Part shown: positions 4,435 to 39,770 of the stretch, piece after piece
Numbering within the stretch: position 1 is the first letter of the stretch
How the letters are laid out: each line of letters opens with the position of its first letter
Assembly: GCA_024239035.1 (NCBI GenBank)
Contig: JANBVK010000001.1
Location: 1-42,261 of the forward strand
Source of the DNA: Patescibacteria group bacterium
Lineage (GTDB): Bacteria; Patescibacteriota; Minisyncoccia; UBA6257; GWB1-50-10
Direction of reading: 5' to 3'
Length of the DNA stretch: 42,261 bases
Position numbers and translations under genes: made by a program
Notes under the pieces: model-generated
Seen by the model: the letters and a program-made list of their open reading frames with translations, nothing else
The model's database searches: none
Told to the model about the DNA's origin: nothing

Positions 4435-4475
4435 CCTGCGCACACTTCAACCATTTTTTTATTTGATTTACTCTT

Positions 4476-4513
4476 GTCCTCACTTCGTCCACATATGTGG
4501 ACGAAGTGAGGAC
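4476..4513. repeat. 38-bp perfect palindrome
   Basis: GTCCTCACTTCGTCCACAT|ATGTGGACGAAGTGAGGAC, every base pairs. Confidence 0.95.
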
Positions 4514-11007: not shown

Positions 11008-12402
11008 ATGACTATAAAATTAATAAAAATTACAGAGTGCTGTGAGTCAAAAACGAACACTCGCGGCAAGGATGCGTTCCAAGGCCCGGCGTTCAACGAT
11101 CTTGTGGCGAGTATCAAAGAGAAAGGGGTAATAGTGCCGGTGATTGTCCGGGAAACAAGCTCAAGTAACAGATCAGTCGCTTACGAAGTTGTCGCTGGGA
11201 GTCGCCGGCTCCAAGCGGCAGCTATTGCGGACTTACAGCAAATCCCAGCAGACGTGCGGGAGCTGTCCGACGTCGAGGCCAGGGAGATACAAATCATAGA
11301 GAACTTACAGCGCGAAGACATCCACCCCGTTGCCGAGGGGGAGGAGTATCGCAAACTTATAGAAGTGTCGGGATATGAGGTGAAGGACGTAGCCGCGAAA
11401 GTGGGCAAGTCGGAGAGCTATGTTCGGCAGCGATTACTGCTTACCAATCTCACCAAAGCTGCTTCGAAGGAGTATCGGGCCGGGAAAATAGACTACGGCC
11501 GCGCGGTTTTGGTAGCGGGGCTTAGCCCCAACGACCAGGAAACGGTTATAAAAGAAATAAAGAGCGGGTGGAATGCACCGACTGCAGTGGCTCTTAAGGA
11601 GCTTATAGAAAGAGAGATATACAAACCTCTCGCAAGTCAGCCGTGGCTCCACGATAAGAAAGTGGCCGAAGCCGTCGGACCATGCAAGGAGTGCCCGCCA
11701 AACAGGAGCGATCTCTTTGGAGAAATAAAAGACGGCCAGTGCACAGACTTAGTTTGTTGGAAGCGCAAGATGGATCTTTATGTCGATTACCGCAAAGGGG
11801 GAATTAAGGATCTTATCCTCGTTAGAAAGGACTACGGATCGGCAAGCAAAGGCGTTCTCTCCCGCAGCAACTATGAGTCCTTGGGCTCGAAGAAGAAACA
11901 ACATTGCAGTTATGCTAGGCAAGCCATCGCGGTAGAGGGACCGGGAGCCGGAAGTATCTTTTGGATCTGTGCTGATGGCAGTTGTAAAAAGCATCACTAC
12001 TCGTTCACGTCTTATGAGCAGACGCCGGCTGAAAAGAAAAGACGGAAGAAGCAACTCCAGCGCGTGCAGGCAGAAAAAGACAAAGAGGATAAGAGAATCT
12101 TAATAGCGCTCAAAAAAGTGAGGTGGCCGATGTCAAAGAAGGTCCTGGACGCGATACTCGAGAAGCAACTGGGACGAGGTCCGCAAATCCTCCGGCCGGT
12201 CATGAACCGCCACAAGTTGAAGATAAAATTGGTAACGCGCAAGAACTGGGAAGGCAAGATGGTCAAGGAACGCGATGTTGGGGCGACACTCCGGGACGCT
12301 GCAAAGAATATGAAGCCGCGTGAGAGGCTGCAGCTGGTGATCGAGATCATCCTGGAGGACTCCTGGGAAGAGGCGAGGGAGAAAATAATCAAGATGCTAT
12401 GA
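11008..12402 (+). CDS. ParB/Spo0J-like protein
   Basis: ParB N-domain features (VAGSRRLQAAAIADLQQIPADVRELSDVEAREIQIIENLQREDIHPVAEGEEYRKL), HTH, Cys cluster CKECPP...CTDLVCWKRK. Confidence 0.85.
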   Translation: MTIKLIKITECCESKTNTRGKDAFQGPAFNDLVASIKEKGVIVPVIVRETSSSNRSVAYEVVAGSRRLQAAAIADLQQIPADVRELSDVEAREIQIIENLQREDIHPVAEGEEYRKLIEVSGYEVKDVAAKVGKSESYVRQRLLLTNLTKAASKEYRAGKIDYGRAVLVAGLSPNDQETVIKEIKSGWNAPTAVALKELIEREIYKPLASQPWLHDKKVAEAVGPCKECPPNRSDLFGEIKDGQCTDLVCWKRKMDLYVDYRKGGIKDLILVRKDYGSASKGVLSRSNYESLGSKKKQHCSYARQAIAVEGPGAGSIFWICADGSCKKHHYSFTSYEQTPAEKKRRKKQLQRVQAEKDKEDKRILIALKKVRWPMSKKVLDAILEKQLGRGPQILRPVMNRHKLKIKLVTRKNWEGKMVKERDVGATLRDAAKNMKPRERLQLVIEIILEDSWEEAREKIIKML

Positions 12403-16041: not shown

Positions 16042-16428
16042 ATGAATAAAGAAATAAATACACACAATCTTATAGTTAATTTTGGAAAACATAAGGGGCA
16101 ACGTTGGACGCGGATACCAATTTCTTACTTACAATGGCTCGCGAATGAAGTAGATAGCGAGAAAGGCGAGATAGCCAAAGCTGAATTAAAGCGGCGGGGA
16201 GTTACTATGCCGACCTCACTGAGATTAAGCGGGCATTCAATAGACAGGGCTTCGCAAATAACAACAGTGTGGGCGAAAGAGGGTGTGTATAGTTGGCTGC
16301 AAAAAACAGGCGAGGAGGCCCTAAAGGAGGCGGCCGGAAAAGAAGAAGTGAGTTATAAGCATTTTAAATTTGTATTTGTTTATGGAGAGTATTACCCGAC
16401 TTTAAAAACTATTATCCAAAAAAAGTAA
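16042..16428 (+). CDS. Phage protein, DUF3820-like N-terminus
   Basis: VNFGKHKGQRWTRIPISYLQWLANE. Confidence 0.6.
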   Translation: MNKEINTHNLIVNFGKHKGQRWTRIPISYLQWLANEVDSEKGEIAKAELKRRGVTMPTSLRLSGHSIDRASQITTVWAKEGVYSWLQKTGEEALKEAAGKEEVSYKHFKFVFVYGEYYPTLKTIIQKK

Positions 16429-16433
16429 TTCCA

Positions 16434-16862
16434 ATGATTATTAAATTCACAATTCACGGCAACCAAGAGTATTACAACGGGAATCCTGTGCCGTTCCAGC
16501 GGATGCTGAATTATGCCTGGCGGCGCGCATCGACTCGATATGTGGAATGGCAGCAGTACGTTCGCGATCAATACTTCGAAACCCGCAGAGCGCTCGGGCT
16601 GCAGGCAATAATTAGTGACAATGGTGACCCTAACGGGATTGAGATGGTGCGTACTACCGAAATTAAACCGTTCAACACAAAACGGAAAGCACAGATGGAT
16701 ATTGAGATTTATTGGAAAAATAACGCGCATGGCGATCCCGACAATGTGTGGAAGGGGGTGGCTGATGCGTTGTTTAAAGACGACAAGAACCTCGACGGTT
16801 CGTTCAAAAGTCAAGTGGCCAAGAATAAGAAAGGTCGTGTCGAGGTGAAAATTACCATCTAG
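16434..16862 (+). CDS. RusA-family Holliday junction resolvase
   Basis: GDPDNVWKGVADALFKDDKNLDGS, RusA-type DxDN...K..DAL motif. Confidence 0.8.
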   Translation: MIIKFTIHGNQEYYNGNPVPFQRMLNYAWRRASTRYVEWQQYVRDQYFETRRALGLQAIISDNGDPNGIEMVRTTEIKPFNTKRKAQMDIEIYWKNNAHGDPDNVWKGVADALFKDDKNLDGSFKSQVAKNKKGRVEVKITI

Positions 16863-17544: not shown

Positions 17545-17720
17545 AGGATAAGAGTACGATATTACCAGCGAATCAAAAACCCCGCATTAAGTTCGTGAAA
17601 AAAGCCGGCCTCTGGTGCAGGACAACATGGGTCGACGATAAACAGAAACAAGAATGGTTTAAGGAGAAGCCCATCGAGAAAAAACCGGAAAGTAAAATAG
17701 AACACCATGATGAGTTTTAA
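17541..17720 (+). CDS. Small hypothetical phage protein
   Basis: MKDKSTILPANQKPRIKFVKKAGLWCRTTWVDDKQKQEWFKEKPIEKKPESKIEHHDEF*; overlaps both neighbours. Confidence 0.55.
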   Translation: MKDKSTILPANQKPRIKFVKKAGLWCRTTWVDDKQKQEWFKEKPIEKKPESKIEHHDEF

Positions 17721-19003
17721 TGAAAATTGAACAGATAAAAATTAAGGATATCCGTTTTTCGGAATACAATCCGCGGAAGATTACTGATACGGAGCTCACG
17801 AAACTATGTGAGAGCATCCGCATGTTCGGGTTCGTTAACCCGGTAGTGGTAAATACACATACCTGCGAGAAATGCGCCGACCGGAACCTCGTGCTTATTG
17901 GTGGGCATCAGAGAGTCAAAGCGGCCGAATCTGAAGGAATGGATGAAGTGCCGACGGTAAAAGTAGATCTTCACCTCGAGCAGGAGAAGATCTTAAACCT
18001 ATCACTAAACAGGATCGGCGGTGCGTGGGACGCTGACAAGCTGGCGGATCTAATTTTGGATATCAGAGGATCAAGCATACTTCCCATGTCGGGATTCAAT
18101 GAAGATGAGATCAGTCGTATACTCGATAGCAGGCTTATTGATGATACCGATTATGGGAACGAGGAGACAATCCCCGAAGATCATGATTCGCAAATCGGCG
18201 AAGTGTACGATCTTGGGGTTCACCGGCTTGTGTGCGGCGACTCAACCGACCCTAAAACGTTTGATCTCCTCCTCGGTGATGAAAAGGCGGACATGGTATG
18301 GACTGATCCGCCATACAACGTTGCTTATGAGAGCCGCGGAAAAAGATTAAGAGAGGAAAACAAGTCAACCATTAAGAATAACGACCTACCACCCGAACAG
18401 TTCCAGGAGCTTATTGATAAATCGTTTTTTAACATGCTGCAGTGCGCAAAAAGCGGAGCGGTGTTTTATATCTGCTCGGGTTGGTCAAGTTATCCGGTGT
18501 TTTTCGAGCAACTCAAAAAACACGGATTCAAGTTGTCAGGTACGATCGTATGGGTTAAAAATATCGCATCGAAGGGATGGGGCGATTATGACTACAAGCA
18601 TGAATGGATTGTCCGGGCCCGGAAAAAAGAAGAAAAGGAAAAAGTAAAGGGAGTAAGCATTATTTACGGTTGGAAAGAAGGGTCAGCACATAAATTCTTC
18701 GGCAGTAGGGACGAGTTTGACGTGTGGGAGATGCCGCGCAAAGCGGTGATGCAATACCTGCACCCCACCGAAAAACCCGACTGGCTGCCTATGCGGGCGA
18801 TCCGCAACTCCTCAAAACGCGGGGATATTATTCTTGATCCGTACACAGGGTCGGGCAGTGTAATGCTTGCAGCGGAGAAAACCGGCCGGCGGGCGTACAT
18901 GATTGAATACGATCCGCGGTTCTGCGATGTTATCCGGCGGCGGTACGAAACAATATTGAGAAAAAATCAGGAAATTAAAGGTCGACCGCAAAATAATCAG
19001 TGA
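17720..19003 (+). CDS. ParB-domain/DNA methyltransferase fusion (N4-C or N6-A type)
   Basis: N-term ParB-like LVLIGGHQRVKAAESEGMDEVPTVKV; C-term DMVWTDPPYNVAYES and LDPYTGSGSVMLAAEKTGRRAYMIEYDP. Confidence 0.88.
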   Translation: MKIEQIKIKDIRFSEYNPRKITDTELTKLCESIRMFGFVNPVVVNTHTCEKCADRNLVLIGGHQRVKAAESEGMDEVPTVKVDLHLEQEKILNLSLNRIGGAWDADKLADLILDIRGSSILPMSGFNEDEISRILDSRLIDDTDYGNEETIPEDHDSQIGEVYDLGVHRLVCGDSTDPKTFDLLLGDEKADMVWTDPPYNVAYESRGKRLREENKSTIKNNDLPPEQFQELIDKSFFNMLQCAKSGAVFYICSGWSSYPVFFEQLKKHGFKLSGTIVWVKNIASKGWGDYDYKHEWIVRARKKEEKEKVKGVSIIYGWKEGSAHKFFGSRDEFDVWEMPRKAVMQYLHPTEKPDWLPMRAIRNSSKRGDIILDPYTGSGSVMLAAEKTGRRAYMIEYDPRFCDVIRRRYETILRKNQEIKGRPQNNQ

Positions 19004-19855: not shown

Positions 19856-21260
19856 AGAATTAGGACAACTTCTTGAGCATCCGGAAGTTAGAAAAGAACT
19901 CCGAAAAACTTACAAGGGGTTTTGTTTTGTATATTCTTCGCATTATTTAAGATTACCTCCCGCTGAATTTCACCCGGAAATGATTGATCTTTTAGGCGAC
20001 TGGCTGGAAGACATGCTCGCACTCGTCGCTTTTAGAGGATCAGCGAAGACAACTCTTGGAAACACATTGCTTACTTTATGGGCAGCTCTTGAAAAAGAAA
20101 GTCCATTCATACTGCCATTTAACGAAACTGGTGACGTTGCAGTTTTAAATATCGCAAACATTCGTCACGAGCTTGAGAACAACGAGCTTCTCATCCAGGA
20201 CTACGGCGATATGAGCAAGGGGATTAGCAAAAACAGGAGCTGGACAAAGCTTAATCTTCTTCTCGCAAACGGCGTGCGCATTATGGGACGTTCACGGGGG
20301 CAAAAAGTCCGCGGACTTATACATCGCGGCCACCGTCCCAGCTTTGTGATTATTGATGACCCGGAGGAACTCCACAAAGTAAAAGGTGAAGCATACCGGG
20401 AGAGAACGGAACAGTGGCTGCGCTCAGACGTAATACCTGCGATTGATGAGTTTGGTTCGCGGTTAATATTACTCCTTAATCTTCTTCACCGTGATTCACT
20501 AGCAGCGCGCATTAAAAACGATCCACTCTTTACTTATAGAGAATATCCAGTCCTTGACGAGAAAGACAATATTATGTGGAAGGGAAAGTACCCGGACATG
20601 GAAGCGATAAAAAAACAGGAGCAAAAGGTTACGTCTTTAAAAAAGGGATCGCGGGGCACGTGGATGCGGGAGTACATGCTCAAAGTTATCTCGGAAGAAG
20701 AACAGGTAATTAAGGAGGAGTGGATCAGACGTTACGATAAAGTACCAACTGAAGCTATAAAGAGCGGGGTGGGGGTTGACCTTGCAATCAGCAAAAAGGA
20801 TACGGCCAACAAAACGGCAATGGTATCGGGAGTGCTCGCGTTTGTTGATGGCATGCCGAAAATCTATGTTCTCCCAAATCCAGTTAACGCTAGATTCACT
20901 TTTAACGAAACTATGAGTGAGATGAGAAGCATTGCTCTAGGACTCCGGATCTACGCTCCGCCGATGTTTTTTATAGAAGATGTGGCGTTCCAAAAAGCAG
21001 CAATTCAAGAAGCAGAACGCAAGATGATCGCTGTTAAAGGGATGAAACCGGGAAGTGACAAGAGATCGCGACTTGGAACTGCATCGGTTTATGTACAAAA
21101 CGGCACAGTGTTGTTTCCTAAAAAAGGTTGTGAAGATTTAATTGATCAACTCATCGGTTTTGGCGTAGAAGATGATGACGACTTGGCCGATGGATTTGTA
21201 TACATGGTGCTCGGGCTGGCCGAGGAGGGCCTTGAACAAGATGGAGTAGTAATGTTATGA
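19803..21260 (+). CDS. Terminase large subunit
   Basis: LVAFRGSAKTTLGNTLLTLWA Walker A, SFVIIDDPEELHKV Walker B, GVDLAISKKDTANKTAM nuclease-like motif. Confidence 0.88.
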   Translation: MIAETLKQFQSQQNLSPEELGQLLEHPEVRKELRKTYKGFCFVYSSHYLRLPPAEFHPEMIDLLGDWLEDMLALVAFRGSAKTTLGNTLLTLWAALEKESPFILPFNETGDVAVLNIANIRHELENNELLIQDYGDMSKGISKNRSWTKLNLLLANGVRIMGRSRGQKVRGLIHRGHRPSFVIIDDPEELHKVKGEAYRERTEQWLRSDVIPAIDEFGSRLILLLNLLHRDSLAARIKNDPLFTYREYPVLDEKDNIMWKGKYPDMEAIKKQEQKVTSLKKGSRGTWMREYMLKVISEEEQVIKEEWIRRYDKVPTEAIKSGVGVDLAISKKDTANKTAMVSGVLAFVDGMPKIYVLPNPVNARFTFNETMSEMRSIALGLRIYAPPMFFIEDVAFQKAAIQEAERKMIAVKGMKPGSDKRSRLGTASVYVQNGTVLFPKKGCEDLIDQLIGFGVEDDDDLADGFVYMVLGLAEEGLEQDGVVML

Positions 21261-21466
21261 ACGGTAAGAAACCAACAACAAGAACTATGCGCGAGGTACC
21301 GGACGAGTGGGACCGGCTGATGCGTGTCGCCGCGGCGATTAATTACGGATCCGCAAAGGTGGTATTTAAAGATGGCAAGCCGGTGCGGATTGATGCGGCC
21401 ATAAAGCAAATAAAACTCGATAGCGAGGATGATTTTAATGAAGGATTGAAAACGATACCGCTTTAA
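21257..21466 (+). CDS. Hypothetical phage protein
   Basis: ORF overlapping terL stop. Confidence 0.5.
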   Translation: MNGKKPTTRTMREVPDEWDRLMRVAAAINYGSAKVVFKDGKPVRIDAAIKQIKLDSEDDFNEGLKTIPL

Positions 21467-21780: not shown

Positions 21781-21792
21781 TTATCTTCAAAA

Positions 21793-21820
21793 CGTCCACA
21801 TATGTGGACAAAGTGAGGAC
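21793..21820. repeat. Second copy of the CGTCCACATATGTGGAC(G/A)AAGTGAGGAC repeat
   Basis: One mismatch to the half-palindrome at 4486-4513. Confidence 0.85.
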
Positions 21821-21869
21821 GCTTAAAGTCGCCTGTTTTTTATCCACAGACAAAACAGAGTGGATTTGT

Positions 21870-21991
21870 TATAATAAAAGCGTAAATTAACAATTCATTC
21901 CCAGCTCGGGGATGGGTCCGAGTGGAGCAACCATAGGACTTGTGACCTTGCCTTTCTATTTAGAGGCTCGTGTCACGAGTCCTTTTTTATT
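21870..21991 (+). ncRNA. Structured leader copy A (promoter, hairpin, conserved linker, terminator-like hairpin) upstream of portal
   Basis: TATAAT 21870-21875; GCTCGG/CCGAGT hairpin; AGTGGAGCAACCATAGGACT; GGACTTGTGAC/GTCACGAGTCC then TTTTTT. Confidence 0.75.
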
Positions 21992-22000
21992 TGCGTTTCT

Positions 22001-24205
22001 ATGGATGTTTTTATCAACAAACTTCTTGGTAAGGTAGGTCTTGTTCGTAAGTCAAGCATATCTACCTCATCTTCGTTGGGCGGCTCAGACCCTTTTGCGA
22101 TTTGGCGTGGCTCAAAAAAAATCTCAGTTGAAAAAGCAATGGGGGTGTACAGCGGTTGGGTTTACACTGCTGTGCGGGCAATTGCGGAAGAAATAGGGCG
22201 CATTCCTTTCCATTTATTTCAGATAAAGAAGGATGGATCGATTGAGGAGCTGTTCGATCATGATCTTCTTAATCTCTTGTTCGCTCCGAATCCGCATCAC
22301 ACAGGATACGAGCTGAAGTACAACACACTCGCACACCTCGAGCTCGGTGGGAATTCATATTGGTTACTTGACGGCGTTAAAAATGATACCGACCAACCGC
22401 GCAATATTTATTGGCTGAGTCCTAAGTACATGACGGTTGAGAAGGGCGAGATTCCTGAGATTGTAAAAGGTTACACTTACCGCATCGGATCAAAAACTAC
22501 AAAGTATCAGCCGCACGAAATTCTTCACATCCGTTATCCCGATCCCAACGATCCCTTTGAGGGTATCGGAACGGTGCAGTCAATCGCGCAATGGATCGAT
22601 GCGGATAACTATGCTACTGAATTCAATCGCCGCTTTTTCTTAAATGGTGCTCGGATCGGCGGATTTCTTGAGTCGGAAAACGCGCGCACTCCCGAACAGT
22701 TAGAATTTTTGAAAAAATCTTTTGAAGAAATTTATAAGGGTGTTGAGAACGCGTACAAGATAGCGGCGTTGCCGAAAGGGACAAGTTATAAAGAAGGTCA
22801 GTCAAAGATTAAGGACATGGACTTTGCGAATCTGCAGCGTGATAGCCGGGATAAGATACTCGCAGGATTCCGGGTGCCGAAAACTACCCTGGGCGCTGCC
22901 GAGAGCGACACTAACCGCGCCACTGCAGAGACCGCCGATTTCGTTTTCGCTGCCCGGACAATCAAACCCAAAATGGAACTGCTTGTTACATTTTTGAACG
23001 AGCGATTGGTGCCGCGATACGGTGACGACATATATCTCGACTTTGATAATCCAGTACCAGAGAACCGGGAACAGCGGATTAAAGAAATGGAAGCGGCCAC
23101 CGGCAAACAACCAGTGATAAGTATTAACGAGGCGCGCGAACAATACTTTACGCTGCCGCCTATTGAAAACGGTGATGCCGTAAGAGGCGACTTAATGAAA
23201 CAGCCGATCGGTGAACCCGAAAAGCGGCGGAAGAATGTGGTAAACATTAAAACCAAAAACGGCAGGACGATACCGAAAACAAGATTCGCCTTAAATCTGA
23301 AACGCAGAAAAGACGCATCGAAAGAGATCGCGGGTTGTCTCGTTGATGAGGTGAAAAAAATCGGAGAAGATGCAGAAAAGATAAAAGAAAGAGCGCAGCA
23401 GGGGATCGCAGAACTAAACGACGAACAGTACGAAGCTATCTGGAAAGTATTTATCACACGCATATCGCCATTTGAGAAGCGGCAAGTAGAGGCGTTGCGA
23501 GATTTCAACAGTAAGCAAAAAGATGAAGTGCTTAAGAATCTTGAGAGTGCTCTCAAGGCCCTCCCGGCAGAGAAAGCGATCAACCCCGATGATTTATTTA
23601 AAAAGGGTGAATGGGTTGGCGTGCTCGTTGATTTAGAGACACCAATCCTTACTGAACTCTATGAAGAGGAAGGATCCGCGGCTGCTGAGTTTCTGGGATT
23701 TGATGATTTAAACATTCTCACGCCCGCAAACAAAAAAGCGTTAGATGAGTCCGTTGAGCTCATGGCCGAATCCTACAACGAATCAACGCTGAAACTCCTT
23801 AAAAAGAAGCTTGAGGAAGGCCAGCGCGAGGGGTTGCCTCTTGAGGAGTTGAAGGAAACGGTCCGCAGCGTGTATGCCTTCAGTGATGAAGTGCGGGCAG
23901 AACGGGTTGCCCGGACAGAGACGTTTAGAATCGCTAACAAAGCGACAAAAGATGCCTGGAAAGAAACAGAAGTTGTAAAAACTATCAAGTGGTACACAGC
24001 TCAAGATGAACGGGTTGATCCTGAAATCTGTGCGCCGCTCCATGGGAAAGTGATCTCAATTGAAGATAACTTTTTCAATAAGGGAGATGAAATAGAACTC
24101 AGTAATGGTGGAACATTTAAGGTCGATTATGACGACGTGGGAAGTCCACCCATCCACGTCAGTTGCCGATGCTATATGAGACCGGAAGAAATAAGCATCG
24201 ATTAA
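22001..24205 (+). CDS. HK97-type portal fused to Mu F/SPP1 gp7-like head morphogenesis domain
   Basis: Portal N-terminal two-thirds (VYTAVRAIAEEIGRIPFHLFQ...); C-terminal RVARTETFRIANKATKDAWKE...WYTAQDERVDPEICAPLHGK...PPIHVSCRCYMRPE. Confidence 0.85.
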   Translation: MDVFINKLLGKVGLVRKSSISTSSSLGGSDPFAIWRGSKKISVEKAMGVYSGWVYTAVRAIAEEIGRIPFHLFQIKKDGSIEELFDHDLLNLLFAPNPHHTGYELKYNTLAHLELGGNSYWLLDGVKNDTDQPRNIYWLSPKYMTVEKGEIPEIVKGYTYRIGSKTTKYQPHEILHIRYPDPNDPFEGIGTVQSIAQWIDADNYATEFNRRFFLNGARIGGFLESENARTPEQLEFLKKSFEEIYKGVENAYKIAALPKGTSYKEGQSKIKDMDFANLQRDSRDKILAGFRVPKTTLGAAESDTNRATAETADFVFAARTIKPKMELLVTFLNERLVPRYGDDIYLDFDNPVPENREQRIKEMEAATGKQPVISINEAREQYFTLPPIENGDAVRGDLMKQPIGEPEKRRKNVVNIKTKNGRTIPKTRFALNLKRRKDASKEIAGCLVDEVKKIGEDAEKIKERAQQGIAELNDEQYEAIWKVFITRISPFEKRQVEALRDFNSKQKDEVLKNLESALKALPAEKAINPDDLFKKGEWVGVLVDLETPILTELYEEEGSAAAEFLGFDDLNILTPANKKALDESVELMAESYNESTLKLLKKKLEEGQREGLPLEELKETVRSVYAFSDEVRAERVARTETFRIANKATKDAWKETEVVKTIKWYTAQDERVDPEICAPLHGKVISIEDNFFNKGDEIELSNGGTFKVDYDDVGSPPIHVSCRCYMRPEEISID

Positions 24206-34732: not shown

Positions 34733-34738
34733 ATGTGG

Positions 34739-34860
34739 TATAATTAGGACATATAATTGAAAATCAATACTCGCGATAGGCGAGTTTGAGTCTAAGTGGA
34801 ATAACCATAGGACTCGCGGTTTACCTGATCTCCAGGATAAGCTGCGGGTCCCTTTTATTT
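34739..34860 (+). ncRNA. Structured leader copy B upstream of the fibre gene
   Basis: TATAAT; ACTCGC-gatag-GCGAGT; AAGTGGAATAACCATAGGACT; GGACTCGCGG/CTGCGGGTCC then CTTTTATTT. Confidence 0.75.
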
Positions 34861-34865
34861 AAACC

Positions 34866-36824
34866 ATGGCACGCAGCGCAGAAGTCAATATAGGAGATAA
34901 CGCATTAGCAGCTCAATACAATAATCTCCGCAAGGATGCGATTGCGGCGGCGCATTTGCTTGCCCACGAGCAGGCAACTCCTGATCTCACTCTTAAAGTT
35001 GAATCGGGAGTTTATTATATTGGTTCAACGCGCGTTGCGTTTGCGGGCGGGAACAGTCCCTCTTTTGTTGCACCGACTACAAACCCCCGCATTGACCTTC
35101 TTGTGATTGACAGCGCAGGAGTGCTCTCGATTGTCCAGGGCACGGAAGCGCCGAGCCCGAGCATACCGACCTACCCGCAGGATAAGGTAACTCTTTGTGA
35201 AGTGTTTAACCGCGTTGGCGAAACAAGCATTAAAGACATAGATGATACATCGAACGGTTACATTCAGCGGGACGTCCGCCCATTTTTAGGGAAATCCTTT
35301 GATCCAGCAAGCGTGGATCAGGACATTATTCCTGCAACCGACGATACCCACGATCTAGGAAGCGCAGCAAAACAATGGGCTGAGGTCCGAACCGTCAAAA
35401 TTTTCGTGGATGGCGCGGAAATGAAAGGGACACTTGAATCGTTTACTGCAGGCGAAAATCTTACCATCGGTGATCCCGCTGGCGTTGCATCTGGAAATAA
35501 GGTAAAGAAGGCATTTAATTACGGCGCAGCACTAGGGTCAGAGACAGTATTTAAAGCAACTGCAACCACAAACGTTGCGGCTGCACAAATTGCCGATGAT
35601 AAGTTCGTTCTTGCTTACTGGGACGGCACAAATGTAAGAGCAAGAGTGGCAACGGTATCGGGCACCACGCCTAGTTTCGGAACGGAAGTGACTATCAGCG
35701 GCGTAGCGTCGCAACCTGTCATAGATGTTTGTAAATTAGACACCGATAAATTTGTAGTTGTTTACTCACAAGGAAACCGAACGCGACTCGGTCGCCCCTG
35801 TTCGGTATCAGGAACAACTATTACACTCGGGACAATCAAAGATTTCGGCGACTTTCCAAGCGCGGACACATCAATTATAAAATGCGCCCAGCTTGATGTT
35901 GACAAATTTGTTGTGATGGCGGGAGCGCTGGACACAGCAGTAGTAATCTGGGCAAATACTGTAAGCGCATTAGTAATCACAAAAGGTAGTGACACTGCTC
36001 TTGGAATGGGAGCGCCGCCGACAGACAGCAAACACAATGCAAACGCTTCGCTTGCACAGGTTGACACCGATAAATTTGTGGCTGCATATCGAAAGGTGTC
36101 CGACAACGATGGCTATGTAAAAATAGGGACCGTAAGCGGAACAATCATCACGCTCGGAGGAGAGACGTCTTTCAACGCAGCCGATACGAGCGAGATTGAC
36201 GCTGTATGCCCGACCACCACCAATCTCATTGTCTCTTACAAAGACGAAGGTAATTCAAACCAGGGGACTCTGGTTGCAGCGACAATATCAGGCACTACGC
36301 CAACTTTTGGGAGCGAGGTGGTTTTTGAAACAGGCATTACTAATTTTACTTCAATAGCGAAAGTAGGCAGTAAGACAGTCGTCATTGCCTACCAAGACGC
36401 GGGAGACTCGAATCATGGAAAGGTGGTATCGGCAAAGATAAACGGGAATACGGTGAGCGGCGTAGGGACGGGCTTGGCGATTACTACGTTTAACGCGGCA
36501 ACCACGACCTACATTGCGATAGCAGACACAAATTCAACAGGATCGTTTATTGTGGGCTATCGCGATGAAGGCAATTCAAACCAGGGGACGGCCGTTGTTG
36601 GTGAAGGTGACACCGTTCAAAACTTTACTGGAATTGTACAAGCAACGGTAACTTCTGGTAATCCTGTCGACGTGAAACTGATCGGGACAGACAGCAACCA
36701 GAGCGGATTGACTACGGGACAAAAGTATTTCGCTGTTGACGGAGCATTAAGCACCAGTAATGAGAATGGCGATGATTCTAAGGTTGGCTGGGCAAAGACG
36801 GCAACCTCGATCGTAATAACATAA
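34866..36824 (+). CDS. Putative tail fibre/receptor-binding protein with propeller-like repeats
   Basis: Recurring (V/L)DTDKFV(V/A)(V/A)Y...VSGTTxxxGxEV(T/V)(I/F) units over ~350 aa. Confidence 0.72.
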   Translation: MARSAEVNIGDNALAAQYNNLRKDAIAAAHLLAHEQATPDLTLKVESGVYYIGSTRVAFAGGNSPSFVAPTTNPRIDLLVIDSAGVLSIVQGTEAPSPSIPTYPQDKVTLCEVFNRVGETSIKDIDDTSNGYIQRDVRPFLGKSFDPASVDQDIIPATDDTHDLGSAAKQWAEVRTVKIFVDGAEMKGTLESFTAGENLTIGDPAGVASGNKVKKAFNYGAALGSETVFKATATTNVAAAQIADDKFVLAYWDGTNVRARVATVSGTTPSFGTEVTISGVASQPVIDVCKLDTDKFVVVYSQGNRTRLGRPCSVSGTTITLGTIKDFGDFPSADTSIIKCAQLDVDKFVVMAGALDTAVVIWANTVSALVITKGSDTALGMGAPPTDSKHNANASLAQVDTDKFVAAYRKVSDNDGYVKIGTVSGTIITLGGETSFNAADTSEIDAVCPTTTNLIVSYKDEGNSNQGTLVAATISGTTPTFGSEVVFETGITNFTSIAKVGSKTVVIAYQDAGDSNHGKVVSAKINGNTVSGVGTGLAITTFNAATTTYIAIADTNSTGSFIVGYRDEGNSNQGTAVVGEGDTVQNFTGIVQATVTSGNPVDVKLIGTDSNQSGLTTGQKYFAVDGALSTSNENGDDSKVGWAKTATSIVIT

Positions 36825-37070: not shown

Positions 37071-37685
37071 ATGAGAACGCTTCAACTATATTATTCTTTA
37101 CACCCCTGGACGGTTGCCCAAAAATTCGGCCTAAACGGCGAATTCTATCGCAAGAATGGAATAAACATCAAAGGCCATAACGGCATCGATGCGGTCCGGG
37201 GCGGCGGCCACGAAATTCACGCCGCAAATGTCCGGGCCGCCCACGACGGAGTAGTCACTTACGTCGGTGTGGACAACAAAGAAGGATACGGCGTCGTGAT
37301 AAGGACCAAAAAACAGTTTCTCGATGTGAACGGTCAGCCGCATTTCTGGAAAACGATCTACTGGCATCTCCTACCGAACATTCCGGTCAAAGTCGGACAA
37401 GAAGTGAAAATCGGCGACATACTCGGCGAAGCCGACAATACCGGTTTCAGCTTTGGCAGTCATCTCCATTTCGGCTTGAAGCCGATTTACCAGGGCGAAA
37501 ACGACTGGACGTGGTTCAATCTCGATCAAAGCAATGGTTATTTTGGAGCGGTGGATCCCGAGCCGTACTTTACTGGATTGACTGCCTATGATCTCACGAC
37601 AAAGTTCCGCGACATCGCAAAGATTCTCAAAGAGATATTTAACTTGATAATGAGCTTCAAAAAGATAGTTTCTAAAAGGTCGTAA
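37071..37685 (+). CDS. M23-family peptidase endolysin
   Basis: GHNGIDAVRG, AHDGVVTYVG, SHLHFGLK metal-binding motifs. Confidence 0.85.
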   Translation: MRTLQLYYSLHPWTVAQKFGLNGEFYRKNGINIKGHNGIDAVRGGGHEIHAANVRAAHDGVVTYVGVDNKEGYGVVIRTKKQFLDVNGQPHFWKTIYWHLLPNIPVKVGQEVKIGDILGEADNTGFSFGSHLHFGLKPIYQGENDWTWFNLDQSNGYFGAVDPEPYFTGLTAYDLTTKFRDIAKILKEIFNLIMSFKKIVSKRS

Positions 37686-38015: not shown

Positions 38016-38192
38016 CACAATTAAAAAACCTATTGTCCCGGAAGGGATCACCCGCAGCGGCGGGAGATATGACCGATGGGGTTCAAAATTGCCGAGAGAG
38101 GCAATATAATGATAACGCGATGGCGAAAGCTGTCGTAGTGCCTTGCAAGGCGCGCACGAACCCACCGTTGAGTCATATCGCGGTGGGTTTCG
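38016..38192 (+). ncRNA. Structured leader/small RNA upstream of integrase
   Basis: Hairpins TCCC-GGAA-GGGA, CCCGC-AGCG-GCGGG, ATTGCC-GAGAGA-GGCAAT, CGATGGC-GAAA-GCTGTCG, GCCTTGCAAGGC, then AACCCACCG/CGGTGGGTT. Confidence 0.6.
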
Positions 38193-38197
38193 TGTTT

Positions 38198-39160
38198 ATG
38201 AAATTCAGTGATGCAATAGAAAAATTTATTAACAGATCTGATTTAGAGAGAGCAGAAGGAACTGTAAAAGCGTATGAACAAGATCTCAAGAGATTCTGCG
38301 TCTTCACGCACAACCCTATCATCACAGAGATAACAGAAGAGAATGTGGTGGCGTACTTCCGGTTGCTCATCGAGTTGAAATACAAAAAGAATGCGTTTAT
38401 TCCCATACAACAATCCTTAATAAACTTCTTTAGATATTGGAGGAGAAAGGGACTTTACGTTCTGGATCACGAATTGATCCCCCGGACCAAAAAAGAATTC
38501 AGGATGCCGGATGTCGCCACAGAGGAAGATTACAGGAAGATGTTGGCGGCCATTCCTCAAGACACCAACCAGGCATTCCACATCAGGAACCGCGCCATGG
38601 TCATGTTCCTTGAAGCGACCGGCTGTCGCAACGGTGAGATGTGCTCTCTCAATATTGGTGATTCTAACTCTAGTCAAATCAAAAAAAATTACCTCGATCT
38701 AAGAAATCAAAAAGCATTGATCGAGACAGAAAAGAATAGAGGCAGTAGGCCCATTAGAGAGATATATTGGAAGGACAGCAAAGAAACTCACGAGGCGTTA
38801 TTAAAATGGATCGCAAGACGTTCTGAAATGAAAAAACATATAGTTTTTAAGGACCCTGACGCTCTCTTCGTAGGTTGTATGGGCTGGCAAGTAGGGAAAC
38901 GGCTGATGAACAGTGCAGTATGTATTGCGCTGCGCAAAATTTCAAGGAGTGCCGGGCTTACTTACAATTTTCATCCTCACATGCTCCGCCATAAATTCGG
39001 GCACGATCTTAATCGTGAAGGAGCAAATGCCTTTACAATTGCCGGGCTATTAGGACATGTTTTAGTAGAGAGTTCAAAAATTTATACGGAGATGGATAAT
39101 AAAGAGAGGCAAGAGGCGTATGTGAAATATAAGGGGGACCGGCACAAGAAAGACCAGTAG
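38198..39160 (+). CDS. int: Tyrosine recombinase (phage integrase)
   Basis: RAMVMFLEATGCRNGEMCSL, HPHMLRHKFGHDL, AGLLGHVLVESSKIYTEM; start at 38198 preferred over track start. Confidence 0.9.
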   Translation: MKFSDAIEKFINRSDLERAEGTVKAYEQDLKRFCVFTHNPIITEITEENVVAYFRLLIELKYKKNAFIPIQQSLINFFRYWRRKGLYVLDHELIPRTKKEFRMPDVATEEDYRKMLAAIPQDTNQAFHIRNRAMVMFLEATGCRNGEMCSLNIGDSNSSQIKKNYLDLRNQKALIETEKNRGSRPIREIYWKDSKETHEALLKWIARRSEMKKHIVFKDPDALFVGCMGWQVGKRLMNSAVCIALRKISRSAGLTYNFHPHMLRHKFGHDLNREGANAFTIAGLLGHVLVESSKIYTEMDNKERQEAYVKYKGDRHKKDQ

Positions 39161-39688: not shown

Positions 39689-39759
39689 GGGGGTATAGTT
39701 CAATGGCAGAACGGCGGTCTCCAAAACCGTTAATCTGGGTTCGAATCCTAGTACCCCCG
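39689..39759 (+). tRNA. tRNA-Trp (CCA)
   Basis: Acceptor GGGGGTA/TACCCCC, anticodon loop CTCCAAA, T-arm TTCGAAT. Confidence 0.93.
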
Positions 39760-39770
39760 CAAATTTTGAA

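Follow-up and report, generated by a model that had tools for sequence, protein, structure and literature searches.

In the BglG/SacY systems, the RNA antiterminator (RAT) is a hairpin of 23–30 nt that partly overlaps a terminator and depends on a protein for its stability (PMC4347634). ANTAR proteins also bring about protein-dependent antitermination via hairpin RNA (PMC4347634). Lambda Q uses a DNA element to load at a promoter-proximal pause (PMC7171158), and HK022 put is a phage RNA hairpin element acting on termination (PMC9378689). The late-gene leaders of the Patescibacteria prophage described here resemble each of these in part. Like BglG/SacY RAT, they have an antiterminator hairpin of ~23–30 nt that overlaps the 5′ arm of a terminator, but the hairpin has one GA/A internal loop and an A-rich loop closed by G-C, and it precedes phage head genes and surface genes rather than sugar genes. 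Furthermore, the cognate protein of BglG/SacY combines a CAT RNA-binding domain with PRD domains behind it, whereas the protein that accompanies these leaders matches only PF10055 (DUF2292). With lambda Q they share a terminator directly behind the late promoter and a candidate regulator gene just upstream; here, however, the determinant is a conserved RNA hairpin overlapping the terminator itself. HK022 put is likewise a phage RNA hairpin acting on termination, but it acts on polymerase without a dedicated protein and lies outside any terminator arm. ANTAR systems come close to the protein-dependent, hairpin-mediated antitermination that we propose, but their targets are tandem stem-loops, not a single hairpin with an internal loop. 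By analogy, the leader would work like a BglG/SacY RAT, but it is unrelated in sequence and we do not assign it to that system; as an RNA switch, it belongs to no type catalogued so far.

The window, meaning the whole stretch of DNA analysed, is the initial 42,261 bases of a 621-kb contig in a genome of 794 kb. It holds a prophage region with terminase, portal, protease, capsid, tail and integrase genes. The integrase gene (38033–39160) adjoins tRNA-Trp (39689–39760), a likely attachment site, and the prophage also encodes a ParB-like domain fused to a DNA methyltransferase (17720–19003). The terminase gene lies upstream of the first leader, leader A, and the portal, protease and capsid genes lie downstream, which agrees with the early/late boundary that a sequence-only reading had placed here. 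The features at leader A are:

21257–21466, forward strand: DUF2292-like small protein, 69 aa, candidate hairpin-binding antiterminator
21840–21848, forward strand: TTATCCACA, DnaA-box-like site upstream of the late promoter
21867–21875, forward strand: extended −10 promoter TGTTATAAT, from sequence
21897–21913, forward strand: hairpin 1, AUUCCC-AGCUC-GGGGAU, from sequence
21914–21941, forward strand: antiterminator hairpin, ~28 nt, GGGUCC-GA-GUGG-AGCAA-CCAU-A-GGACUU, from covariance model R1 (31.4 bits), covariation and nascent fold
21936–21988, forward strand: intrinsic terminator, from sequence, −27.1 kcal/mol
22001–24205, forward strand: portal gene, the first behind leader A (phrog_2662 portal, E 1.2e-103)

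The promoter has TATAAT at 21870–21875 and the TG of the extended −10 at 21867–21868. In the fold of the nascent leader, GGGTCC (21914–21919) pairs with GGACTT (21936–21941) around an inner GTGG/CCAT stem. The terminator arms, GGACTTGTGAC (21936–21946) and GTCACGAGTCC (21972–21982), form 11 bp with one G-U and are followed by a tract of six U (21983–21988), with the portal ATG (22001) 12 nt later. Because the 5′ arm of the terminator is also the 3′ arm of the antiterminator, only one of the two structures can form. The whole leader folds to −50 kcal/mol vs −28.8 kcal/mol for shuffles (z −5.9). The sequence-only reading had located the promoter, terminator and U tract correctly. Its remark that GGTCC can pair with GGACT was right, as these arms form the conserved 28-nt hairpin, and the segment that it took for a linker does recur, but turns out to supply the inner stem and both loops, terminal and internal, of the antiterminator. 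The hairpin 1 that it offered as the switching partner (GCTCGG/CCGAGT) fared worse: its arms are able to pair, yet doing so prevents the conserved antiterminator from folding, and relatives do not preserve this hairpin. The form of hairpin 1 listed above keeps the antiterminator arm free.

The same design stands ahead of the second late operon, where a second copy had also been claimed; the supposed linker of leader A recurs there with 2 mismatches, against 0 such matches expected, and a search of the organism’s own genome with R1 returned just these two copies. The features at leader B are:

34736–34744, forward strand: extended −10 promoter TGGTATAAT, from sequence
34769–34785, forward strand: hairpin 1, ACTCGC-GATAG-GCGAGT, from sequence
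34788–34815, forward strand: antiterminator hairpin, GAGUCU-AA-GUGG-AAUAA-CCAU-A-GGACUC, from R1 (36.7 bits) and nascent fold
34810–34856, forward strand: intrinsic terminator, −28.6 kcal/mol
34866–36824, forward strand: first ORF behind leader B, 652 aa, without family match
37071–37685: M23 peptidase, after the 652-aa ORF in the second late operon

Besides the window, ~24 non-redundant related Patescibacteria phages and prophages have the same two-state leader before the portal gene. Leaders were collected from the regions upstream of portal homologues, which occur in Nomura-, Kaiser-, Peri- and Uhrbacteria records (a Kaiserbacteria genome is assigned to the same class as the window's genome); the 25 tabulated are the two window copies and 23 others, and L144/L147 add one more. 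Every tabulated leader is preceded by a promoter-like −10, and many, not all, by a hairpin of variable sequence in the position of hairpin 1. The antiterminator hairpin is 25–29 nt long, and its 3′ arm is the 5′ arm of the terminator in 25/25. Its consensus reads 5′ arm, (G/A)A, a 3–4 bp stem ending in G, a 4–5 nt A-rich loop, the C... side of the stem, A (or AC), and a 3′ arm GG(R)CY, which in the relatives is the first part of the terminator. Conservation is highest in the antiterminator, at its closing pair and in its terminal and internal loops, while the interior of the terminator varies freely. No leader was seen before the portal gene in L014 and L066, both of which encode a DUF2292-like protein, and L016 showed neither such a gene nor a leader at this place. 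In L020, the leader lies immediately downstream of the end of a reverse-transcriptase-like ORF (285 aa, YIRYADDFAIL).

The hairpin cores covary. In model set A2 (13 leaders), 93.8% of pairs are standard, 7 of 10 pairs show double-sided changes, and covariation is 0.656 vs at most 0.191 for slid pairings; across all hand-structured cores, 217 of 233 cells are standard vs at most 177 in 1000 shuffles, with 66 double-sided changes. Because knowledge of the structure guided the choice of these sets, checks that do not depend on them are important. R1 recovered the leaders of L012, L013, L026 and L030/L086, which are outside its training set, at the expected place with weak scores, and a scan of entire phage genomes for structure alone placed the leader site first in 11 of 12, missing that of G392. 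The predicted fold is the antiterminator for 21/25 nascent leaders and the terminator for 25/25 full leaders, with mean stabilities of −9.8 and −28.7 kcal/mol, respectively. Upstream pairing of this sort is found at 23/25 leaders vs 70/214 other terminators of these genomes. The shared arm, the mutually exclusive folds and the covariation of the antiterminator together mark the leader as an attenuator. A long-range pairing of the leader 5′ end with sequence past the U tract was dropped as not significant (p 0.056 vs non-cognate pairs), as were weak R1 matches in other CPR genomes (L119–L123), which are coding or chance sequence, and the first pattern matches (L005–L007), which are one coding sequence matched by chance.

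When 4227 Rfam 15 families, including riboswitches and T-box, were searched, only tRNAs in the window scored above the gathering threshold, and 16 relatives gave no Rfam match. The best sub-threshold match, RsaOG, was rejected at 24.2 bits against a gathering score of 50 bits. The lack of a known family, the conservation and covariation of the pairing and the overlap with the terminator support the novel structured leader with an attenuator arrangement that the sequence-only reading had put forward. Its description as riboswitch-like is not supported in the ligand sense: with a length of just 25–29 nt and a small protein that accompanies it, the element is better explained as a protein-dependent antiterminator.

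That protein is encoded by a gene of 59–84 aa that is kept between terL and the leader in nearly every relative. The window protein scores 18.6 bits (E 0.0014) against PF10055, below the Pfam cut-off of 22 bits; 10 of 21 homologues match the family at E ≤ 0.1 (best 6.9e-8). A profile of the small protein found a copy in all twelve portal-lineage records scanned, plus G408, and among 389 genomes of the phylum it matched 6 of the 8 portal genomes, all six with the leader, and one other genome weakly. Distances between hairpins track distances between the small proteins (partial r 0.44, p < 0.0005, n = 17) and show no correlation with those of the terminase (partial r −0.07) or portal (0.07). This correlation is unchanged when subgroups are removed, and is carried mostly by the stem arms, the inner part alone giving r 0.16 (p 0.048). 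DUF2292 is a predicted alpha-beta-beta protein of 53–90 aa (a helix plus a beta-hairpin), with predicted-structure pLDDT of 83 for a chromosomal DUF2292 and 70 for the window protein, and chromosomal DUF2292 has a conserved basic R-x-I-K/R-K segment. Fold searches with DUF2292 models and PDB sequence searches gave no solved relative and no link to a known RNA-binding fold, tblastn searches for DUF2292 in isolated phages gave no convincing match, and we found no described DUF2292 function in the literature searched, where just two papers name the family. An hhalign match of A4 to A6 (E 5e-10) was set aside as evidence, since A6 held the window protein and a phage protein.

Scanning viral contigs by RNA pattern, blind to proteins, revealed at least four further phage lineages in which a leader with overlapping terminator stands before head genes of other head modules. 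In G409/G411 the leader precedes a ChaB/protease gene with the capsid gene behind, and in G412, G413 and G407 it precedes a scaffold-like gene and a capsid gene; G410 is a fragment with the leader at the contig end. A DUF2292-like gene is present in three of these lineages, directly upstream of the leader in G409, G411 and G412 and 5.4 kb upstream in G413, with scores of 13.4–36.4 bits vs a background best of 8.2 bits (376 kb). The G413 protein exceeds the PF10055 cut-off (25.9 bits). No DUF2292-like gene was found in the G410 fragment, and the profile search of G407 gave only a non-significant candidate (7.0 bits, E 0.13); a weak DUF2292-like ORF of G407, at 16362–16556 on the minus strand, abuts the terminase gene. 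The leader of G407 (L153–L155) is at 12091–12118, between a podovirus-type portal gene and scaffold/capsid genes. A terminase query found no relative in the viral contigs.

The pairing of RNA and protein appears to extend beyond phages. In another Patescibacteria class, 58 of 241 genomes encode PF10055, and at 27 of 30 PF10055 loci, chosen by protein score alone, a hairpin and terminator lie within ~215 nt 3′ of the gene; the 700 nt upstream of the same genes gave 3 weaker matches. A typical element of that class is AAGCU-GA-CCG-CAAA-CGG-A-GGCUU plus a terminator, and the cores covary (0.369 vs 0.205). Model R2, built from these cores, matches 64 of the 241 genomes with 1–3 copies per genome. 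Both DUF2292 and the RNA occur in 55 genomes, DUF2292 only in 3, the RNA only in 9 and neither in 174 (Fisher 7e-41, phylogeny ignored). Judged by their neighbours, these loci look chromosomal. Behind DUF2292 lies a secreted repeat protein of ~360–400 aa without Pfam match; further targets are secreted repeat proteins of smaller size, camelysin/TasA-like proteins with an S26 signal peptidase behind them, and UDP-glucose/GDP-mannose dehydrogenases with epimerase, glycosyltransferase and PIG-L deacetylase. The element is not restricted to CPR phages, and precedes surface genes in Patescibacteria genomes too. Loci L209–L237 and L248–L267 form a candidate surface regulon under the same hairpin, with secreted NTGG-repeat proteins, camelysin/TasA-like proteins plus signal peptidase, and UDP-sugar dehydrogenases.

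We think it likely that the leaders work by protein-dependent antitermination, in which DUF2292 binds the hairpin, blocks the terminator and turns the late operons on. Each leader would be a transcription attenuator: RNA polymerase would start at the extended −10 promoter, and the nascent RNA would first fold the ~28-nt antiterminator hairpin. By default, the longer terminator would capture the 3′ arm of the antiterminator, and transcription would stop at the U tract, before the head operon at copy A and before the tail/lysis operon at copy B. The small phage DUF2292-family protein encoded just upstream may bind and hold the antiterminator hairpin, possibly recognising the closing G-C, the A-rich 4–5 nt loop and the GA/A internal loop, and the held hairpin would keep the terminator from forming so that the late operons are expressed. 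That the protein is the factor flipping the switch is suggested by its shared occurrence with the RNA in many other Patescibacteria; from the sequences, we infer hairpin binding by DUF2292, the antitermination polarity and the timing in the phage cycle. Adjacency of gene and leader also allows co-transfer without interaction. We lean towards the broader reading that DUF2292 is an RNA-binding antiterminator family that forms, with the hairpin, a widespread Patescibacteria regulon for cell-surface protein and surface polysaccharide genes, phages carrying their own protein and RNA copies for head genes.

The antiterminator could be real and yet be stabilised by a host protein, an RNA polymerase-associated factor or a small ligand, with DUF2292 merely a linked gene with another role. 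The RNA without DUF2292 in 9/241 genomes, the lack of a significant DUF2292-like protein in G407, and the presence of the DUF2292-like gene in L014 and L066, where no leader was seen ahead of the portal gene, would suit this alternative, but it is unlikely given the co-occurrence in 55 of 58 genomes, the adjacency across several phage lineages and another class, and a hairpin that covaries with DUF2292 and not with the equally adjacent portal. Opposite polarity, in which a protein or signal prevents the antiterminator and turns the genes off in a TRAP-like manner, is improbable. Polarity is not fixed by sequence alone, and read-through could be the default, but the unpaired positions that are conserved fall within the antiterminator fold, which suggests recognition of the folded form and is one reason why we propose that DUF2292 stabilises it; moreover, the terminator is ~19 kcal/mol more stable, so termination is likely the default and read-through should need help. 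An unregulated attenuator or insulator that holds read-through into strongly expressed structural genes at a constant level would fit the structural or surface protein targets in both settings and a small hairpin without large aptamer, but is most improbable, as such a static device would need neither the conservation in the loop and internal loop nor the accompanying protein.

Antitermination by DUF2292 would give this uncharacterised protein family a function and provide a new RNA family with a testable partner. Few regulatory circuits have been proposed for Patescibacteria, whose genetics is hard to study, and this would be one of them. It predicts how phages of Patescibacteria switch on their late genes, and ties this switch to a surface regulon in other Patescibacteria.

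DNA sites also occur upstream of the late promoter. The TTATCCACA box is exact in 8/25 leaders (0.01 expected) and present with at most 1 mismatch in 17/25 (0.7 expected); in many phages it lies 30–49 bp upstream of the late −10, and its variants fit TTWTNCACA. The organism’s own genome has 23 copies vs 3 for the reversed control, and outside the prophage the box is found 30–44 bp from a −10-like hexamer at several places. Such a DnaA box could tie late transcription to DnaA. A dispersed palindrome of ~36–40 bp around TTTATCCACATATGTGGACAAA also recurs in the same genome (window 4474–4513 and 21781–21820; L127, L130, L131, L134, L136, L139), one copy being just upstream of the late promoter.
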